From Limnohabitans sp. MORI2 (GTDB lineage Bacteria > Pseudomonadota > Gammaproteobacteria > Burkholderiales > Burkholderiaceae_C), in contig NZ_AP027058.1 of NCBI RefSeq assembly GCF_027925025.1, positions 1,240,001 through 1,304,000 on the forward strand: a DNA stretch of 64,000 nucleotides, read 5' to 3'. Below the pieces are notes generated by a model. The model did no database searches and was not told the DNA's origin. It saw only the letters and a program-made list of their open reading frames with translations. Made by a program: the position numbers and the translations under genes. Positions 25,792 through 56,300 of the stretch are shown here, in pieces. Positions within the stretch are counted from its first letter, which is position 1; every line of letters starts with the position of its first letter.

Positions 25792-27282
25792 ATGCAACAA
25801 GACATCCTCATCAACTGGTCGCCGCAAGAAACCCGTGTGGCCATTGTCGAAACGGGCGCGGTGCAAGAACTGCACGTCGAGCGCACGCTCGAGCGCGGCT
25901 TGGTGGGCAATGTGTACTTGGGCAAAGTGGCGCGTGTGTTGCCAGGCATGCAGTCGGCCTTCATCGACATTGGCCTAGAGCGTGCCGCGTTTTTGCATGT
26001 GGCCGATTTGATGAGCAGCGTGGCCGCACGCCACGCCGACAACGACAAGGGCGAGCCAGCCCCTGTCATGCCGATTGAAAAACAAGTGTTTGAAGGTCAG
26101 TCGATCTTGGTGCAAGTCATCAAAGACCCGATTGGCACCAAAGGCGCACGCTTGTCGTCGCAAATCAGCATTGCGGGCCGCTTGTTGGTGTTTTTGCCGC
26201 AAGACCAGCACATTGGTGTGTCGCAAAAAATCCCGTTTGAGCAGCGCGAGGCCTTGCGCCAACGCCTGCAAAGCTTGGCCGAAGCCACCGCCCCCGATGG
26301 CAAAACGGGTGGTTTCATTTTGCGCACCAACGGCGAAGATGCCAGCGATGCTGAGCTAGGTGAAGACATTGCCTACCTGCGCAAAACCTGGGCCCGCATC
26401 AAAGAAGCCTCGACCCGCTTGCCACCCAAATCTCTGTTGCACCAAGACCTGAGCCTGCTGCAACGCGTGCTGCGCGACTTGGTGAGCGAAACCACGCAAA
26501 CCATCCGCATTGACTCGGCTGAGCAGTTTCAAAAACTCAAAACCTTTGGCACGGAGTTCATGCCTAGCGCGGTGGACAAACTGCAGCTGTACAAAGGCGA
26601 GCGCCCGATTTTTGACCTCTTCAACATCGACGATGAAGTGGGCAAGGCCTTGGGGCGTCGCGTCGATTTGAAATCGGGCGGCTACCTCATCGTCGACCAA
26701 ACCGAGGCCCTGACTACGATTGACGTGAATACGGGCGGCTACGTAGGCGCGCGCAACTTTGACGAAACGATTTTCAAAACCAACCTAGAAGCCGCAGGCG
26801 CAATTGCCCGCCAACTGCGCTTGCGCAACTTGGGCGGCATCATCATCGCCGACTTCATTGACATGACCCGCGAAGACCACCGCGAAGCTGTGTTGGCTGA
26901 GTTTCGGAAACAACTCGCCCGTGACCGTGTGAAGACGATGGTGAGCGGCTATTCGGCCTTGGGCCTAGTGGAAATGACCCGCAAACGCACCCGCGAATCA
27001 CTGGCTCACATGCTGTGCGAGCCATGCCCCGTGTGCGAAGGCAAGGGCAGTGTGAAAACCACGCGCACCGTGGCCTATGACATCTTGCGCGAGATCTTGC
27101 GCGAGGCTCGCCAGTTCCATCCCAAAGAGTTCCGTGTCATTGCTTCGCCTGGGGTGATTGATGTGTTGCTAGACGAAGAAAGCCAACATTTGGCGGGGTT
27201 GAGCGACTTCATTGGCAAGCCGATTTCTTTGCAGCCTGAGGCGTCGATGTCGCAGGTGCAGTACGACATTGTGTTGCTCTGA
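25792..27282 (+). CDS. rng: Ribonuclease G
   Basis: 496 residues. Endonuclease of the RNase E/G family for 16S rRNA 5' end maturation and mRNA decay. An S1 domain lies at residues ~36-125 (GLVGNVYLGKVARVLPGMQS). The catalytic DNase I-like part has the metal-binding DVNTGGYVG near residue 305 and IIADFIDM near 350. The Zn-link is the CPVCEGKG motif within LCEPCPVCEGKGSVKT. It lacks the long RNase E scaffold tail. Last gene of the hemF-nadD-rsfS-rlmH-maf-rng series. No clear terminator is seen directly after it, only the paired repeat region. Confidence 0.96.
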   Translation: MQQDILINWSPQETRVAIVETGAVQELHVERTLERGLVGNVYLGKVARVLPGMQSAFIDIGLERAAFLHVADLMSSVAARHADNDKGEPAPVMPIEKQVFEGQSILVQVIKDPIGTKGARLSSQISIAGRLLVFLPQDQHIGVSQKIPFEQREALRQRLQSLAEATAPDGKTGGFILRTNGEDASDAELGEDIAYLRKTWARIKEASTRLPPKSLLHQDLSLLQRVLRDLVSETTQTIRIDSAEQFQKLKTFGTEFMPSAVDKLQLYKGERPIFDLFNIDDEVGKALGRRVDLKSGGYLIVDQTEALTTIDVNTGGYVGARNFDETIFKTNLEAAGAIARQLRLRNLGGIIIADFIDMTREDHREAVLAEFRKQLARDRVKTMVSGYSALGLVEMTRKRTRESLAHMLCEPCPVCEGKGSVKTTRTVAYDILREILREARQFHPKEFRVIASPGVIDVLLDEESQHLAGLSDFIGKPISLQPEASMSQVQYDIVLL

Positions 27283-27323: not shown

Positions 27324-27405
27324 GCAAAGCACTTGGGGTGTCTGACTTGGCTTAACGTCCCTGCGGGCCGTGATGGCGCCAAATCAAACACCCCAAGCGC
27401 TTTGC
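27324..27405 (-). repeat. Structured stem-loop element, copy A (read on minus strand)
   Basis: 82 nt. Arms 27324-27348 and 27381-27405 pair over 25 positions and enclose a 32-nt core at 27349-27380. Of the 25 pairs, 22 are Watson-Crick. The other three are A-C or C-A on the + strand but G-U/U-G on the minus strand. The core is the exact reverse complement of the core of copy B. Within the core, in element sense, GGC and GCC at the ends extend the stem, and ACG-G-CCC-GCA-GGG-A-CGT can form an inner hairpin. Confidence 0.8.
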
Positions 27406-27520
27406 TTGCTACGCATCGCTAAAGACAGAGAGCTAGCGCCGCGTGCTGACATCGACCTCAAGTTCACGTCGCGGTCAGTGCCTGATACGGCGCCATCACG
27501 GCCCGCAGGGACGTTAAGCC
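27349..27520. repeat. Perfect 32-bp inverted repeat, 108 bp apart
   Basis: 27349-27380 and 27489-27520 are exact reverse complements over all 32 bases (starting GGCTTAACGTCCC and ending GGGACGTTAAGCC on the + strand). A transcript of the interval could choose between this long intramolecular pairing and the two separate hairpins described as copies A and B. Confidence 0.95.
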
Positions 27521-27547
27521 GTGTCAGGTGCTGGCCGTGACGTGGAC
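27462..27547 (+). repeat. Structured stem-loop element, copy B (read on plus strand)
   Basis: 86 nt. Arms 27462-27488 and 27521-27547 pair over 27 positions: 21 Watson-Crick and 6 G-T wobbles on the + strand, no true mismatch. The 32-nt core (27489-27520) is identical to that of copy A in element sense, but the stems of the two copies share almost no sequence. Copy B lies in the opposite orientation, 56 bp from copy A. The pair fills the space between convergent rng and the minus-strand GT2 gene. Confidence 0.8.
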
Positions 27548-27576: not shown

Positions 27577-28449
27577 TCAAGCAACCAACTTGAAATGCTT
27601 GCGACTGAAGTCCAGCCCAAACGCCTTCTCCAACTTCATCAACCACCGGTGACGCTTCTCACGCTTGGTCAGCTTGTAATCTGGGTCAATCGTGAAGCTC
27701 TTTTCCGCCGAGCTTTCTAGCCAAGGCTTCACCAACTCAGGATGCGTGCCCACGAATGGCTGCAACACTTGCGCGTCAAACTGGCTGTAGCGGATGGTCG
27801 GCGCGCCATGAGACCAAAACTTGCTCACTTGGTCCAGTTTCTTTTGCATGGCCTCGTTGCTTCGCACCCAGCCGTAGTGGTAGATGTGGGCATTGGCCAA
27901 GGCGGCTTGCGGATTACGGCCTTTTTTGTGGTCAGCCGTGATGAGCCAATACTGCCCATCGGGAGCGTACGAGCGGATGGTGTTGCGAATCAGGCGGCAT
28001 TCGCGGCGGTACCACGCGGGGCTGTTGGCCACAAACTCGGGTGTGCCGTAGAAATGAAAGTAGTCAAACACCAAGGCTTCGACGGCAGGGTTGGGGTGGT
28101 GCTTGTCCACACTGGCGCGGATGTTGGCTAGCTCATCTTGATGAACCACTTCGTCGCCTTCCAAATAAAACGCCCAGTCGCCAGTGCAGGCAAATTGGGC
28201 GATCATTTTTTGTTGGGCGTACACAAAGCCACGGTCGGCCATGCGTTCGTTCCAGATGGTTTCAATGATGCGAATCTTGGGTGAGCCAATGGCATGAATG
28301 CGAGCCAAGGTGTCATCGTTGCTTTTGCCCACGACCACAACAAACTCATCGACCAAGGGCAAGAGAGAGCGAATGGAGGCCTCAAACGGGAAGCCCAGCT
28401 CCACGCCGTTGCGAATGAAAGTGAAACCGCTGATGGATGCTTGGCTCAT
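27577..28449 (-). CDS. WaaE/KdtX-like GT2 glycosyltransferase
   Basis: 290 residues from ATG 28449. A longer upstream frame overlaps msbA and is not supported. GT-A features: SGFTFIRNGVELGFPFEASI at the N-terminus, LVDEFVVVVGKSNDDTL near residue 32 (nucleotide-sugar site), and WAFYLEGDEVVHQDEL near residue 92, where EGDE stands for the metal-binding D-x-D. HIYHYGWVR near residue 190 is the acceptor-side motif of WaaE-type enzymes of the LPS core. It follows msbA by 7 bp on the same strand, which favours a role in lipid A-core or glycolipid assembly. Donor unknown. The tail is basic. Confidence 0.8.
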   Translation of the reverse strand: MSQASISGFTFIRNGVELGFPFEASIRSLLPLVDEFVVVVGKSNDDTLARIHAIGSPKIRIIETIWNERMADRGFVYAQQKMIAQFACTGDWAFYLEGDEVVHQDELANIRASVDKHHPNPAVEALVFDYFHFYGTPEFVANSPAWYRRECRLIRNTIRSYAPDGQYWLITADHKKGRNPQAALANAHIYHYGWVRSNEAMQKKLDQVSKFWSHGAPTIRYSQFDAQVLQPFVGTHPELVKPWLESSAEKSFTIDPDYKLTKREKRHRWLMKLEKAFGLDFSRKHFKLVA

Positions 28450-28456
28450 AGGTGGC

Positions 28457-30253
28457 TCAGATGCTGGTTGCGTCAGAAAAATGGTTGTCCGTGCTTTGTG
28501 CAGCCACCTGGTAAAGCGCTGCATACGCGCCGCCTTGGGCCATGAGTTGGGTGTGCGTGCCCGTCTCCACAATGCTGCCCGCTTGCATCACCACAATCAG
28601 GTCGGCGTGTTCGATGGTGGACAAACGGTGCGCAATGACCAGCGAGGTACGGCCCTGCATCAGCACATTCAGTGCGTCTTTTACGGCTTGCTCAGAAGCT
28701 GTGTCCAAGGCCGAGGTGGCTTCGTCCAAAATCAAAATAGGCGCATCTTTGTAAATGGCGCGGGCAATTGCCAAGCGTTGGCGCTGGCCGCCCGAGAGTT
28801 GGGTGGCGTTGTGGCCAACGAGCGTGTTTTCTTGGTGGGGCAGTCCGCGTACAAAGTCGCCCAAATTGGCGGCTTCCAGGGCTTTCCACACGCGCTCCGT
28901 GTCGACGGTTTCGCCCAAGGCGATGTTTTGCGCCACGGTGTCGTTGAACATGACCACGTCTTGGCTCACATAGGCTACTTGGCGACGCAAGCTGACGAGG
29001 GACCAGTCTTTGAGTGGTACGCCGTCTAGGCTGACTTGCCCCGCGCTGGGGTCAAGAAAGCGGGGCAATAGGTTGGCCAAGGTGGTTTTGCCCGAGCCTG
29101 AGGGGCCAACCAAGGCCACAGTTTGGCCGGGGTGAATGGTGAGGCTCACGCCATTCAGGGCAGGGCTGGTGGCCGAAGGGTATTGCAAGGTGACGTGGTC
29201 AAAGCTGATTTCGCCTTTGGCATGGTCGCTGGTGTGCGTGCCTTGGGTTTCGTCGGGCGCGAGCTCAAGCAAGTTCAAGCCGCGCTCCAGCGAGGTGACG
29301 CCGCGCGTGAGCGTGCCCGCCACTTCGGACAAATGCTTGATGGGCGAAATGAGCATCAACATGCCGGTGATGAAGGCGGCAAAACTGCCCACGGTGACGG
29401 TTTGGCTGTTGCTGTCGCCCGTGCTTTGGTACAGCGCCACCATGATGACGGCAGACAAGGCCAAGGCAGCCAGCATTTGGATGAGCGGTGTCATGACCGA
29501 GTTGGCAATGACGGCTTTGATTGCGAGTTGGCGTAATTTGAGGTTGGAGCCTGCAAACTTGTGGGTTTGGCTTTGCTGGGCGTTGTGTAAGCGCACCATG
29601 CGGTAGGCGAGTACGTTTTCTTCCACGACATAGGCCAAATCGTCCGTCGCATCCTGGCTAGCCCGGGTCACATGGTCGAGACGGCGAGAGAGGTTTTTCA
29701 CCACCCATGCAATGGGCGGGAAAATGGCAAACACAATGAGGGTAAGTTTCCAATTCAGCACCAACAAATAGCCAAGCAACGCAAGCAGCGTGACCAAGTC
29801 TTTGGCAAATGCGAGCAGGGTAGAGACCAACAAGCTGGCCCCGTTGTTGACTTCGTACACCATGGTGTTGGTCAGGCCGCTGGTGTGTTTGTCCGCAAAT
29901 AGTTTGGGATCGGCTTTGAGTAACTTCTCAAACAGGCGTTGACGCAGGCCTTCCATCGAGTAGTTGGTCACGCGAGCCAAGCAATAGGCGGCGACAAAAC
30001 CGGCAAATCCACGAACGCCAAATAACAGCAGCAAGACAACCGGGATCATCCACAGGTCAAGCGTGCCACGGTCAAAACCCGTATCGAGCAGGGGCTTCAT
30101 CATGGCGGGAATGGCTGGCTCAGTGGCCGCACCCACAAAAATCCCGGCAATGCCCAAGGCCAGAGCACCCGGATGCCCAGAGAACCAGGGAGCCACGCGT
30201 TTGAGCCTGAGCAACAAAGAGTCAGAGGGCTGCAAAGGGTCGGTGGTGGTCAT
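28457..30253 (-). CDS. msbA: Lipid A/LPS-type ABC exporter MsbA
   Basis: 598 residues, a half-transporter that works as a homodimer in the inner membrane and flips lipid A-core. Residues ~25-330 hold six hydrophobic segments (LDLWMIPVVLLLLFGVRGFAG region and others). The ATPase part has Walker A LVGPSGSGKTTLANL near residue 382, the signature LSGGQRQRLAIAR near 485, Walker B ILILDEATSALD near 504, and the H-loop VIAHRLSTIEHAD. A downstream GT2 gene in the same operon supports the LPS role. Other lipid or drug exporters of this fold cannot be fully excluded. Divergent from tolB. Confidence 0.92.
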   Translation of the reverse strand: MTTTDPLQPSDSLLLRLKRVAPWFSGHPGALALGIAGIFVGAATEPAIPAMMKPLLDTGFDRGTLDLWMIPVVLLLLFGVRGFAGFVAAYCLARVTNYSMEGLRQRLFEKLLKADPKLFADKHTSGLTNTMVYEVNNGASLLVSTLLAFAKDLVTLLALLGYLLVLNWKLTLIVFAIFPPIAWVVKNLSRRLDHVTRASQDATDDLAYVVEENVLAYRMVRLHNAQQSQTHKFAGSNLKLRQLAIKAVIANSVMTPLIQMLAALALSAVIMVALYQSTGDSNSQTVTVGSFAAFITGMLMLISPIKHLSEVAGTLTRGVTSLERGLNLLELAPDETQGTHTSDHAKGEISFDHVTLQYPSATSPALNGVSLTIHPGQTVALVGPSGSGKTTLANLLPRFLDPSAGQVSLDGVPLKDWSLVSLRRQVAYVSQDVVMFNDTVAQNIALGETVDTERVWKALEAANLGDFVRGLPHQENTLVGHNATQLSGGQRQRLAIARAIYKDAPILILDEATSALDTASEQAVKDALNVLMQGRTSLVIAHRLSTIEHADLIVVMQAGSIVETGTHTQLMAQGGAYAALYQVAAQSTDNHFSDATSI

Positions 30254-53300: not shown

Positions 53301-56300
53301 CCTACAACGGCAATACGGTCACCACCAAAACAGTCACCTTGTTGGCCTCTAGCTTGGGCCTGTCAGGCACCAAGGCTGGCAACTACGACATCTCGGGCCG
53401 CTACACCACCGTGAGCAACCTCACGGTCACGGCCAAGATCAACCCCTTGGCCGTGACCGTCACAGGCATTGCCGCCAACGACAAGGTGTACGACGCCACC
53501 ACAGCCGCAACGGTCAGCACCACCAACGCCAGCTTCACAGGCAAAGTCGCGGGCGACGACATCAACGTCGCGGCCACTGGCGTGTTCACCGACAAAAACG
53601 TGAGCTGGCTCAACGGCACGATCAACGGAACGACCGTGGTCAAAACCGTCAACCTCACCAGCAGCTACACCGGCGCTGACTTGGCGAACTACACCATCAC
53701 AGGTCAGGCCACCACCAGCGCCAAGATCACCCCCAAGGCCTTGACCGTGTCGGGCTTTGTGGCTAACAACCGTGTGTACGACGGTGATGTGGTGGCGACA
53801 GTAAACGCAGCCAATGTGTATTTAGCGGGGCTCATCAGCGGTGATGTGGTGACGGCCACCGCTACGGGCACGTTTGCCGACAAGAACGTGGGCACAGGCA
53901 AAACCGTCACGCTCACCAGCAGCTACGCGGGCACGGACAAAGGCAACTACACCATCACCAACCAAGCCACCAGCACCGCCAACATCACACCTAAGGCCTT
54001 GACCATCAGCGGCATCACAGCGGCAGACAAAACCTATGACAACACCACCGCCGCCACTGTGTCGGTGAGCGGTGTGGTGAAAACTGGTTTGGTGGGTAGC
54101 GATGCTGTGAACGTAGCGGCCACCGGCGTGTTCAGCGACGAAAACGCCGCCTCGGGCAAAACCGTCACGCTCAGCAGCACGTACACCGGCACTGACGTGG
54201 GCAACTACACCATCACGGGCCAAGGCACAACCACAGCGCGCATCAACCCGCTGGATGTGCAGTTGCCAGCCGCCGCAAGCTTGACCAAGGTGTATGACGC
54301 CACCACCACGGTGACCACCGCCACCGCCTACGGCAGCTTGGCCGTCACCAGCGCCAACAACAGCAGCCCGTACACCACAGCTCTGACCGCTGACAGCAGT
54401 GGCCTCACCTTGGTGGGTCGCCCCGTATTCAGCAGTGCAGACGCTGGCAACGTGACCGTGGACCAAGGCAGTGTGCAGCTCACAGGCGCGCGTGCTGCCA
54501 ACTACCGTTTGGTTTGGGTGCCTGCCAGCGCCACCATCACCCCCGCACCGTTGACGATGACAGCCAACAACGATGCACGTTTTTATTCGCTTAATGACGA
54601 CCCCGCCTATGCCGGTGTGCGCTACAGCGGTTTTGTGGGCGGGCAAACTGCCAGCGTACTGACGGGCACTGCGGTGGTGACGCGTAATCGCACAGGCTTG
54701 TCAGGCACGGACGACTTGGATGCAGCCAGCGCGACTGCCTATGTGGGCAAATTGGTGCCATCCGGCGTGACATCCAACAACTACACCATCACGCCCGTCA
54801 ACGGCAACTACACCATCGTGCCAGTGGGCGAACTGTTGGTGAAAGTTGCCAACACCAGCGCCACCTATGGCAGCACACCCACTTACACGCTGACGGCGGC
54901 GGGGTACATGGACAACGCGCTTCAAGTGAACGACCTGCTGGCAGCTGGCCAAGCGAGTGTGACTGGCACCTTGGTCACAGTGACCGATGGCGCAACCCCC
55001 ACACCCGCCACCGTGGCGAGTTTTAACCTCGGTGCAGTGAGCCCATCGTTGAGCAGCTCGGGCACACTCAAGGTCGGCGCCTACAGCGTCGGCTCGACGT
55101 TGATCAGTCGCACCAGCAGCAACTTCAACAACACCATCAACGTGGTAGGGACCTATGAAGTGACGCCCAAGTCCGTCACCGCCAGCGCCACCAACGTGAC
55201 CAAGGTGTACGACGGCAACACGGCCTTGGGTAGCTATACCCTGGCACCTGTTGGTTTGGTGAGTGGCACGGTCAACAGCGTGTTGGTGACAGATACCGTC
55301 ACGCTTACAGGCGTGGGTACCTATGCCAATAAAAACGTAACAAACGCTACCGACAAAACCTATACCTTCACCAGCTTGGCGCTGGGCGGTGCTGATGCTG
55401 CCAACTATGTGTTGGTCGATGGCAGCAACGTCGCGACCACTACCTACACTGCCAGCAATGGGGAAATTACCCCACGTGCGCTGAGCGTGACTTACACAGG
55501 CGTGAACAAGGTGTACGACGGCAGCACCACCGCCACGGTCACCACCAGCGACAATCGTGTAGCGGGCGACACGCTGAGCATCATTCGCAGCGCTGACTTC
55601 AACAGCAAAGATGTTCTCACGGCCAACACAGTGACTGTGAGCGGCGTGAGCTTGACGGGTACAGACGCCATCAACTACGACGTGTCATCCGTGGGCAGCA
55701 CCACGGCCAGCATCACACCCCGGGCTCTGACCATCAACTACACTGGCGTCAACAAGGTGTACGACGCCACTACCACCGCCAGTGTGACCACCACTGACAA
55801 CCGCGTGATTGGCGACGACTTCGTCATCAACTGGGTTGCCAGCTATGCCGACAAAAACGTGGCGGGTGGGAAAACCATCAGCGTGAGCAGTGTGACTCTG
55901 AGCAACCCCACTGGCGCAAGCACGGTGGACGCAGGCAACTACACCGTGGTGTCTACGGGCACCACTACCGCCAACATCACCCCACGCCCCTTAAGCGTGA
56001 GCTACACCGGCGTGAGCCGCGTGTACGATGGCGGCGCGGTGGCCACTGTGACCACCACCGACGACCGCTTGAGCGTGAGTGGTACCCCCGATGACTTGAC
56101 CATCATCCGCACCGCCAGCTTTGCCGACAAAAACGTAGGCCCAGCCAAAGCGGTAAGTGTGAGCGGTGTATCGTTGAGCGGCGCTGACGCCGACAACTAC
56201 AGCGTGGTGGCCACTGGTAGCACAGCAGCCGACATCACTGCACGCCCCTTGACCGTGGTGTACACCGGCGTGGCCAAAGAGTACGACGGCTTGGTGAGCG

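Follow-up and report, generated by a model that had tools for sequence, protein, structure and literature searches.

On balance, the two inverted stem-loops described here, copies A and B, are probably copies of a non-autonomous dispersed palindromic element, of which the folded single strand is the working form. The same architecture recurs at 21 sites in the genome and across the genus, at common and unshared sites, after genes and inside them, with differences in presence or absence and with flips in place. One strand keeps folding: stem changes are two-sided, and the irregular pairs are G-U, rarely A-C.

The window, i.e. the whole 64-kb stretch of DNA that was analysed, corresponds to C1:1240001-1304000 of a genome made of a single contig (2.65 Mb). 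Copy A (27324-27405, 82 bp) folds on the minus strand and copy B (27462-27547, 86 bp) on the plus strand, and both are matched by the covariance models described below. They are located between two convergent genes: a plus-strand gene of the ribonuclease E/G family (RNase G-like, 25792-27282; PF10150, 329 bits), whose stop codon is 41 nt before copy A, and a minus-strand glycosyltransferase-like gene (27577-28572, with a putative start codon; PF13704 at 21.5 bits, below the cut-off of 27.5), whose 3' end is 29 nt after copy B. Each copy possesses an apical core of 32 nt (27349-27380, minus strand, in A; 27489-27520, plus strand, in B), consisting of GGC, an internal loop, an inner hairpin with a GCA triloop, and GCC. 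The positions of the copies, the identity of their cores and the inner hairpin had been reported in the first-pass annotation, and all were recovered as claimed. The stems, reported as fully paired, are so, with 28 pairs including 3 G-U in copy A, 30 pairs including 6 G-U in copy B, and no mismatch in either (the outer GGC/GCC of the core is included in these counts); automated extension of the copy B stem gave 35 positions with two mismatches, both outside the 30 pairs. As RNA, the predicted folding energies are -57.7 kcal/mol for copy A (z -10.7) and -63.8 kcal/mol for copy B (z -9.6), and in both cases none of 200 shuffles was equally stable. When the window was scanned for inverted repeats, copy A ranked first of 20. 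The window also contains, at 53423-53460, a perfect 15-bp inverted repeat around an 8-nt loop; it bears no relation to the element.

At up to 3 mismatches the core occurs twice in the window, against 0 occurrences in 100 shuffles, and four times in the genome, namely in A, in B, and in a second inverted pair at C1:440178(-)/440372(+), which is flanked by a DAHP synthase gene and, convergent with it, a Mur-ligase gene. The members of this second doublet have their inner stem sequence in common with A and B, respectively, and differ from them in the outer stems. The stems of A and B, initially described as almost unrelated, do differ from one another, but each is related to its counterpart in the second doublet. 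Because that doublet has stem sequence and several G-U pairs in common with A and B, their nine G-U pairs, all of which favour the element strand, are not nine independent events, although the asymmetry itself holds across the family, as described below. The 32-nt core had likewise been considered fixed; it is identical in A and B, but many loop types are found in the family as a whole, and these have only an architecture in common.

A search with a shorter core, at up to 2 mismatches, gave matches in 10 of the 84 genomes of the genus, which includes Limnohabitans. The exact core was found at 10 loci in the collection of named genomes, in records titled Limnohabitans, Comamonadaceae or Burkholderiales, and the element is carried by Limnohabitans sp. 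Jir61 (NZ_NESD01000002.1). A covariance model generated from 19 copies (R1) matched 18 of the 84 genus genomes and added divergent loop types, and a second one from 23 sequences (R2) matched 31 of the 84 at E 1e-4. At E 1e-3, R2 also matched 10 of 299 family genomes, including six outside the genus, and a third model from 40 sequences (R3) matched 4 of 349 order genomes at E 1e-5; since only 16 and 14 candidates, respectively, were scored per genome, absence in family and order genomes is only weakly tested. The single matches in G042 and G669 are putative members, judged from their folds alone, and one locus with 3 mismatches to the core (L007, in G170) was rejected as a copy, as it has no stem. 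R2 and R3 combined identify 21 distinct copies in the genome carrying A and B (leaving out one partial match at C1:1834294), which correspond to seven doublets, every one minus-then-plus, and seven singles.

The first-pass annotation had proposed a dispersed structured element without a named family, and had allowed that further copies might not exist; the covariance models found a dispersed family, and searches of Rfam 15 assigned it no name. Within the window, tRNA was the only Rfam family at the gathering threshold. For the element stretch and 20 further loci, searched at permissive thresholds too, every listed match fell below the gathering score, and these weak matches, mostly to miRNA hairpins from eukaryotes, were attributed to the general similarity of long hairpins. 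No copy of the element was found in viral, phage and plasmid collections, where a short match to a Deinococcus plasmid (24 of 74 bases, E 0.5) was taken as chance. Literature searches in which palindrome and repeat terms were combined with the host group returned no relevant paper, and it is by literature searches only that the family would count as unpublished. As to the distribution of copies, a region of ~120 kb (G000:C1:2264703-2381965) holds eleven of the 21 copies of this genome, and some copies in relatives (L194, L195, L175, L176) lie no more than a few hundred bases from the end of a contig, which is where they would be expected to fall if assemblies break at long hairpins or repeats.

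Across the family, the elements are ~80-95 bp in length and show a conserved apical module atop a stem of about 25-31 bp in which little of the sequence is fixed. In sets of 19, 23 and 40 copies, 98.1, 93.9 and 90.5% of cells are pairing, compared to shuffled means of 84.0, 65.3 and 57.6, with some bias to pairing built into these sets because the copies came from pairing-aware searches. In the 40-copy set, both sides vary in 20 of the 22 pairs of the outer stem and in 5 of the 6 inner ones, and one inner pair is non-standard in 30 of the 40 copies; for the count of pairs with two-sided changes alone, the observed value was reached by 14 of 500 shuffles. Pairing is also kept within nine orthologous groups (from which rows below ~50% identity to the group's first row were dropped), where the varied pairs are two-sided in 37 cases and one-sided in 17, and the cells comprise 684 Watson-Crick, 81 G-U, 4 A-C and 23 others. 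The covariation first read from two stems thus extends to the family, whose stems differ with compensatory pairing. Copies at orthologous loci could reflect vertical inheritance, and the long upkeep of the structure at these sites suggests a function beyond selfish spread.

The strand preference was assessed with a finder that gives G-U and A-C the same score. In the inner stem, G-U pairs outnumber A-C pairs at 38 of 43 sites, equal them at 5, and are fewer at none. Of 44 copies compared with their complements, 39 fold better on the element strand, 4 fold worse and 1 folds equally well. When stems are grouped into 19 coarse clusters, four of which (L217, L087, L283, L258) look like chance matches, G-U is higher in 15, lower in 2 and equal in 2. 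Whole stems of 92 copies contain 235 G-U and 70 A-C pairs (G-U higher in 65, lower in 12, equal in 15), the A-C counts being higher here because stems fray; the other 8 of 100 distinct finder matches were dropped from this count, being three real copies failing the loop pattern, two real hairpins on the wrong strand and three chance matches in coding sequence. The preference claimed for A and B is therefore a property of the family, and G-U pairs are not spread equally over both strands. Replication-strand bias cannot be its cause, since A and B, as well as other oppositely oriented neighbours, have the same preference. Close to the apex, 30 of 96 copies have U-G then A-U, 17 have U-A then an A-G mismatch, 11 are regular and 38 differ; these irregularities hint at recognition of one strand.

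Relative to the gene with the nearest 3' end, the folding strand runs antisense at 33 of 43 sites and in the sense direction at the other 10 (sites were labelled by majority, with three ties assigned the first label and one site, L258, probably due to chance). Counting copy by copy gives the same placement, with 67 of 87 antisense and 20 sense, 9 of the 96 copies being left out as no gene 3' end is within reach. The contexts of individual copies may be wrong, because gene calls come from an ORF heuristic. Among 26 neighbouring pairs, several of which are orthologous to one another and so not independent, 23 point outward, two are minus-minus, one is plus-plus and none is inward, and the loops are 0-2 letters apart in 21 of the 26, though the stems differ. 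In the genome carrying A and B, three singles between co-directional genes keep the antisense placement, and the doublet at C1:2264703 is upstream of a minus-strand gene, so not all doublets are convergent.

As the folding strand is mostly antisense to the nearest-ending gene, the strand bias is not accounted for by a simple terminator acting on the mRNA of that gene. It is conceivable, if rather unlikely, that the copies are functional RNAs first, with dispersal secondary: each would act in cis at gene 3' ends or insulate convergent genes from one another, its stable hairpin halting or shielding transcripts that come from the opposite gene and restricting antisense transcription into the neighbour. 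The proximity to the 3' ends of genes is consistent with this, since at those 33 sites, and judging by the fold energies, it is the stable strand that meets transcripts entering from the other side; the outward doublets and the pairing long kept in place are also consistent with it. However, copies are found inside three genes, and the three singles between co-directional genes have no opposing gene adjoining. In a flank table of 43 rows, 10 of them with badly trimmed stems (2, 3 or 16 bp), the sense 3' flanks are T-poor and the hairpins lack a U-run downstream on the folding strand, and a promoter and terminator consensus scan, blind to loops above 8 nt, identified no site at the elements. 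In the same rows, the opposite-strand flanks usually have T at the first base only, and the flank consensus reads CGNA before the stem and GNAG after.

If A and B are instead copies of a dispersed palindromic element, as I favour, this raises the question of what moves such palindromes without a linked transposase, as no linked transposase or partner gene was found. A TnpA-REP/Y1-type gene, which the first-pass annotation had suggested looking for, does exist: one Y1_Tnp gene is present in the same genome, and 63 of the 84 genus genomes have a match. A single element is ~1 kb from the Y1 gene in this genome (with another gene between), in G365 and in G369. Together with the strand-specific folding, the inverted doublets and the placement after stop codons, this fits a single-stranded DNA site of a recombinase or transposase, either a REP or REPIN moved by Y1, or a site resembling attC, in which the strand antisense to the preceding gene is the one that folds. 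I nonetheless consider such a site improbable. Examination of 20 Y1 regions from 19 genomes revealed no real element, the sole finder match being within coding sequence. Y1 is present in genomes without R2 matches (e.g. G304, G305 and G307), and two incomplete genomes that do have such matches (G356 and G370) yielded no Y1. Directly beside the Y1_Tnp gene of this genome (L070:4504-4531) is a different palindrome-like word, related to the GGGGTCAG type, and palindromes of this type may be the true REP of the Y1_Tnp transposase. For these reasons the Y1 gene is an unlikely mover of the element, and a RAYT as its partner was demoted, the gene being present but mostly unlinked. When folded, attC sites have conserved end boxes at their base; none was seen at the stem bases on reading through 92 copies.

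Several described repeats resemble the element. REPs are 20-40 bp long, usually exceed 100 copies per genome, and mostly carry a GTAG or CGTC tag (PMC2817692, PMC3116915, PMC3733652). Like REP, BIME and REPIN-RAYT systems so described, the family has extragenic palindromes in alternating orientation and a Y1 gene in the genome, but unlike REPs it has members of ~80-95 bp, 21 copies, no GTAG or CGTC tag and no Y1 linkage in the 20 regions. NEMIS and Correia repeats have terminal inverted repeats, TA ends and a target-site duplication, and their transcripts form long stem-loops (PMC2229807); the element is similarly a non-autonomous repeat with a long stem-loop, but no terminal repeats, target duplication or TA ends were resolved here. 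The same paper describes RPEs from Rickettsia, palindromes of 105-146 bp with predicted long stem-loops, found in intergenic regions and in frame inside protein genes (PMC2229807). The element resembles RPEs, by description rather than by sequence, in occurring both between genes and in frame within them, while the conserved apical module, the matched-loop outward doublets and the G-U strand bias do not appear in the passages that describe RPEs. Because the features tested were not found, the element is not filed as a REP, an attC site or an Rfam family.

Beta-proteobacterial repeat elements (BREs) were also compared. These are described as GC-rich, ~90 bp long (75-91 bp for full copies) and found in betaproteobacteria including five Comamonadaceae genera; they are mostly intergenic, with some copies within coding sequences, and show signs of past mobility; copies at one locus are tandem and variable in number, and were collected at >70% identity (PMC3110155). 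That the element is itself a BRE or a BRE subtype is doubtful. Its size (82 bp for A and 86 bp for B), Comamonadaceae hosts and combination of intergenic and in-gene copies do match the BRE description. However, 23 of the 26 neighbouring pairs are inverted outward and 3 are in the same orientation, whereas BREs are described as tandem, and the stems are mostly unrelated and drift freely, in contrast with a set above 70% identity; it is by this description only that the element is set apart. R3 matched 4 of the 349 order genomes, at 14 candidates scored per genome. In behaviour, and apart from any sequence relation, the element appears closest to RPEs and BREs as described, and would belong among the small non-autonomous palindromic repeats.

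Returning to the preferred reading of a dispersed palindromic element, the folded single strand, whether RNA or single-stranded DNA, would be recognized through its apical module by an inferred factor, and this recognition might serve spreading and perhaps upkeep. Most retained copies would lie downstream of stop codons, in many cases as outward-facing doublets where two genes converge. A transcript of either convergent gene would first run through that gene's own copy, in the weaker antisense form, and if extended further would take in the copy belonging to the neighbour in its stable form. A doublet could in this way serve to mark, or to protect, both 3' ends where two transcripts overlap; this raises the question of how convergent neighbours keep their transcripts apart. 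More tentatively, the family may represent a new class of structure-defined mobile repeat, in which the apical module is recognized and the stem, needing only to pair, drifts under one-strand folding selection, and which is used as outward hairpin doublets with matched, mutually complementary loops at convergent gene ends. Stem drift with one-strand pairing kept in place allows one to ask whether selection acts on RNA or on single-stranded DNA.

Three of the copies in this genome are within genes (valS, a uvrA-like gene and a DUF3025 gene), all in sense orientation and read through in frame. At the uvrA site, where all 30 loci were read, 19 have the element, 2 have the loop reversed between the arms, 6 have another palindrome and 3 have none; the palindrome of the six (L295, L298, L299, L300, L302, L303), of the GGGGTCAG ... 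CCCAATT type, is unrelated to the element. At the DUF3025 site, with 21 of 30 loci read, 10 have the element, 1 has it reversed and 10 lack a full copy, some of these retaining one arm. The loop is reversed in place, with the arms still pairing, in L281 and L287 (uvrA site) and in L324 (DUF3025 site), showing that these palindromes flip. It is very improbable that A, B and their relatives are simple DNA palindromes whose arms stay perfect through arm-templated correction at replication, folding itself not being selected. Such correction would also yield two-sided changes, and the flips and arm losses show that the palindromes rearrange. However, it predicts equal G-U and A-C on each strand, against 38 sites to 0 (5 ties) and 81 cells to 4, and the common preference of the adjacent, oppositely oriented A and B cannot be produced by replication-strand bias. 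The patterns at the two sites are interpreted as a palindrome being gained, lost and flipped within protein loops that tolerate it; no clean empty site or target duplication was resolved at either, and some relatives without the element look like later deletions. The uvrA-like reading frame (G000:C1:2373997-2375496 and relatives) spans ~2000 codons in most complete relatives, UvrA being usually about half that length.
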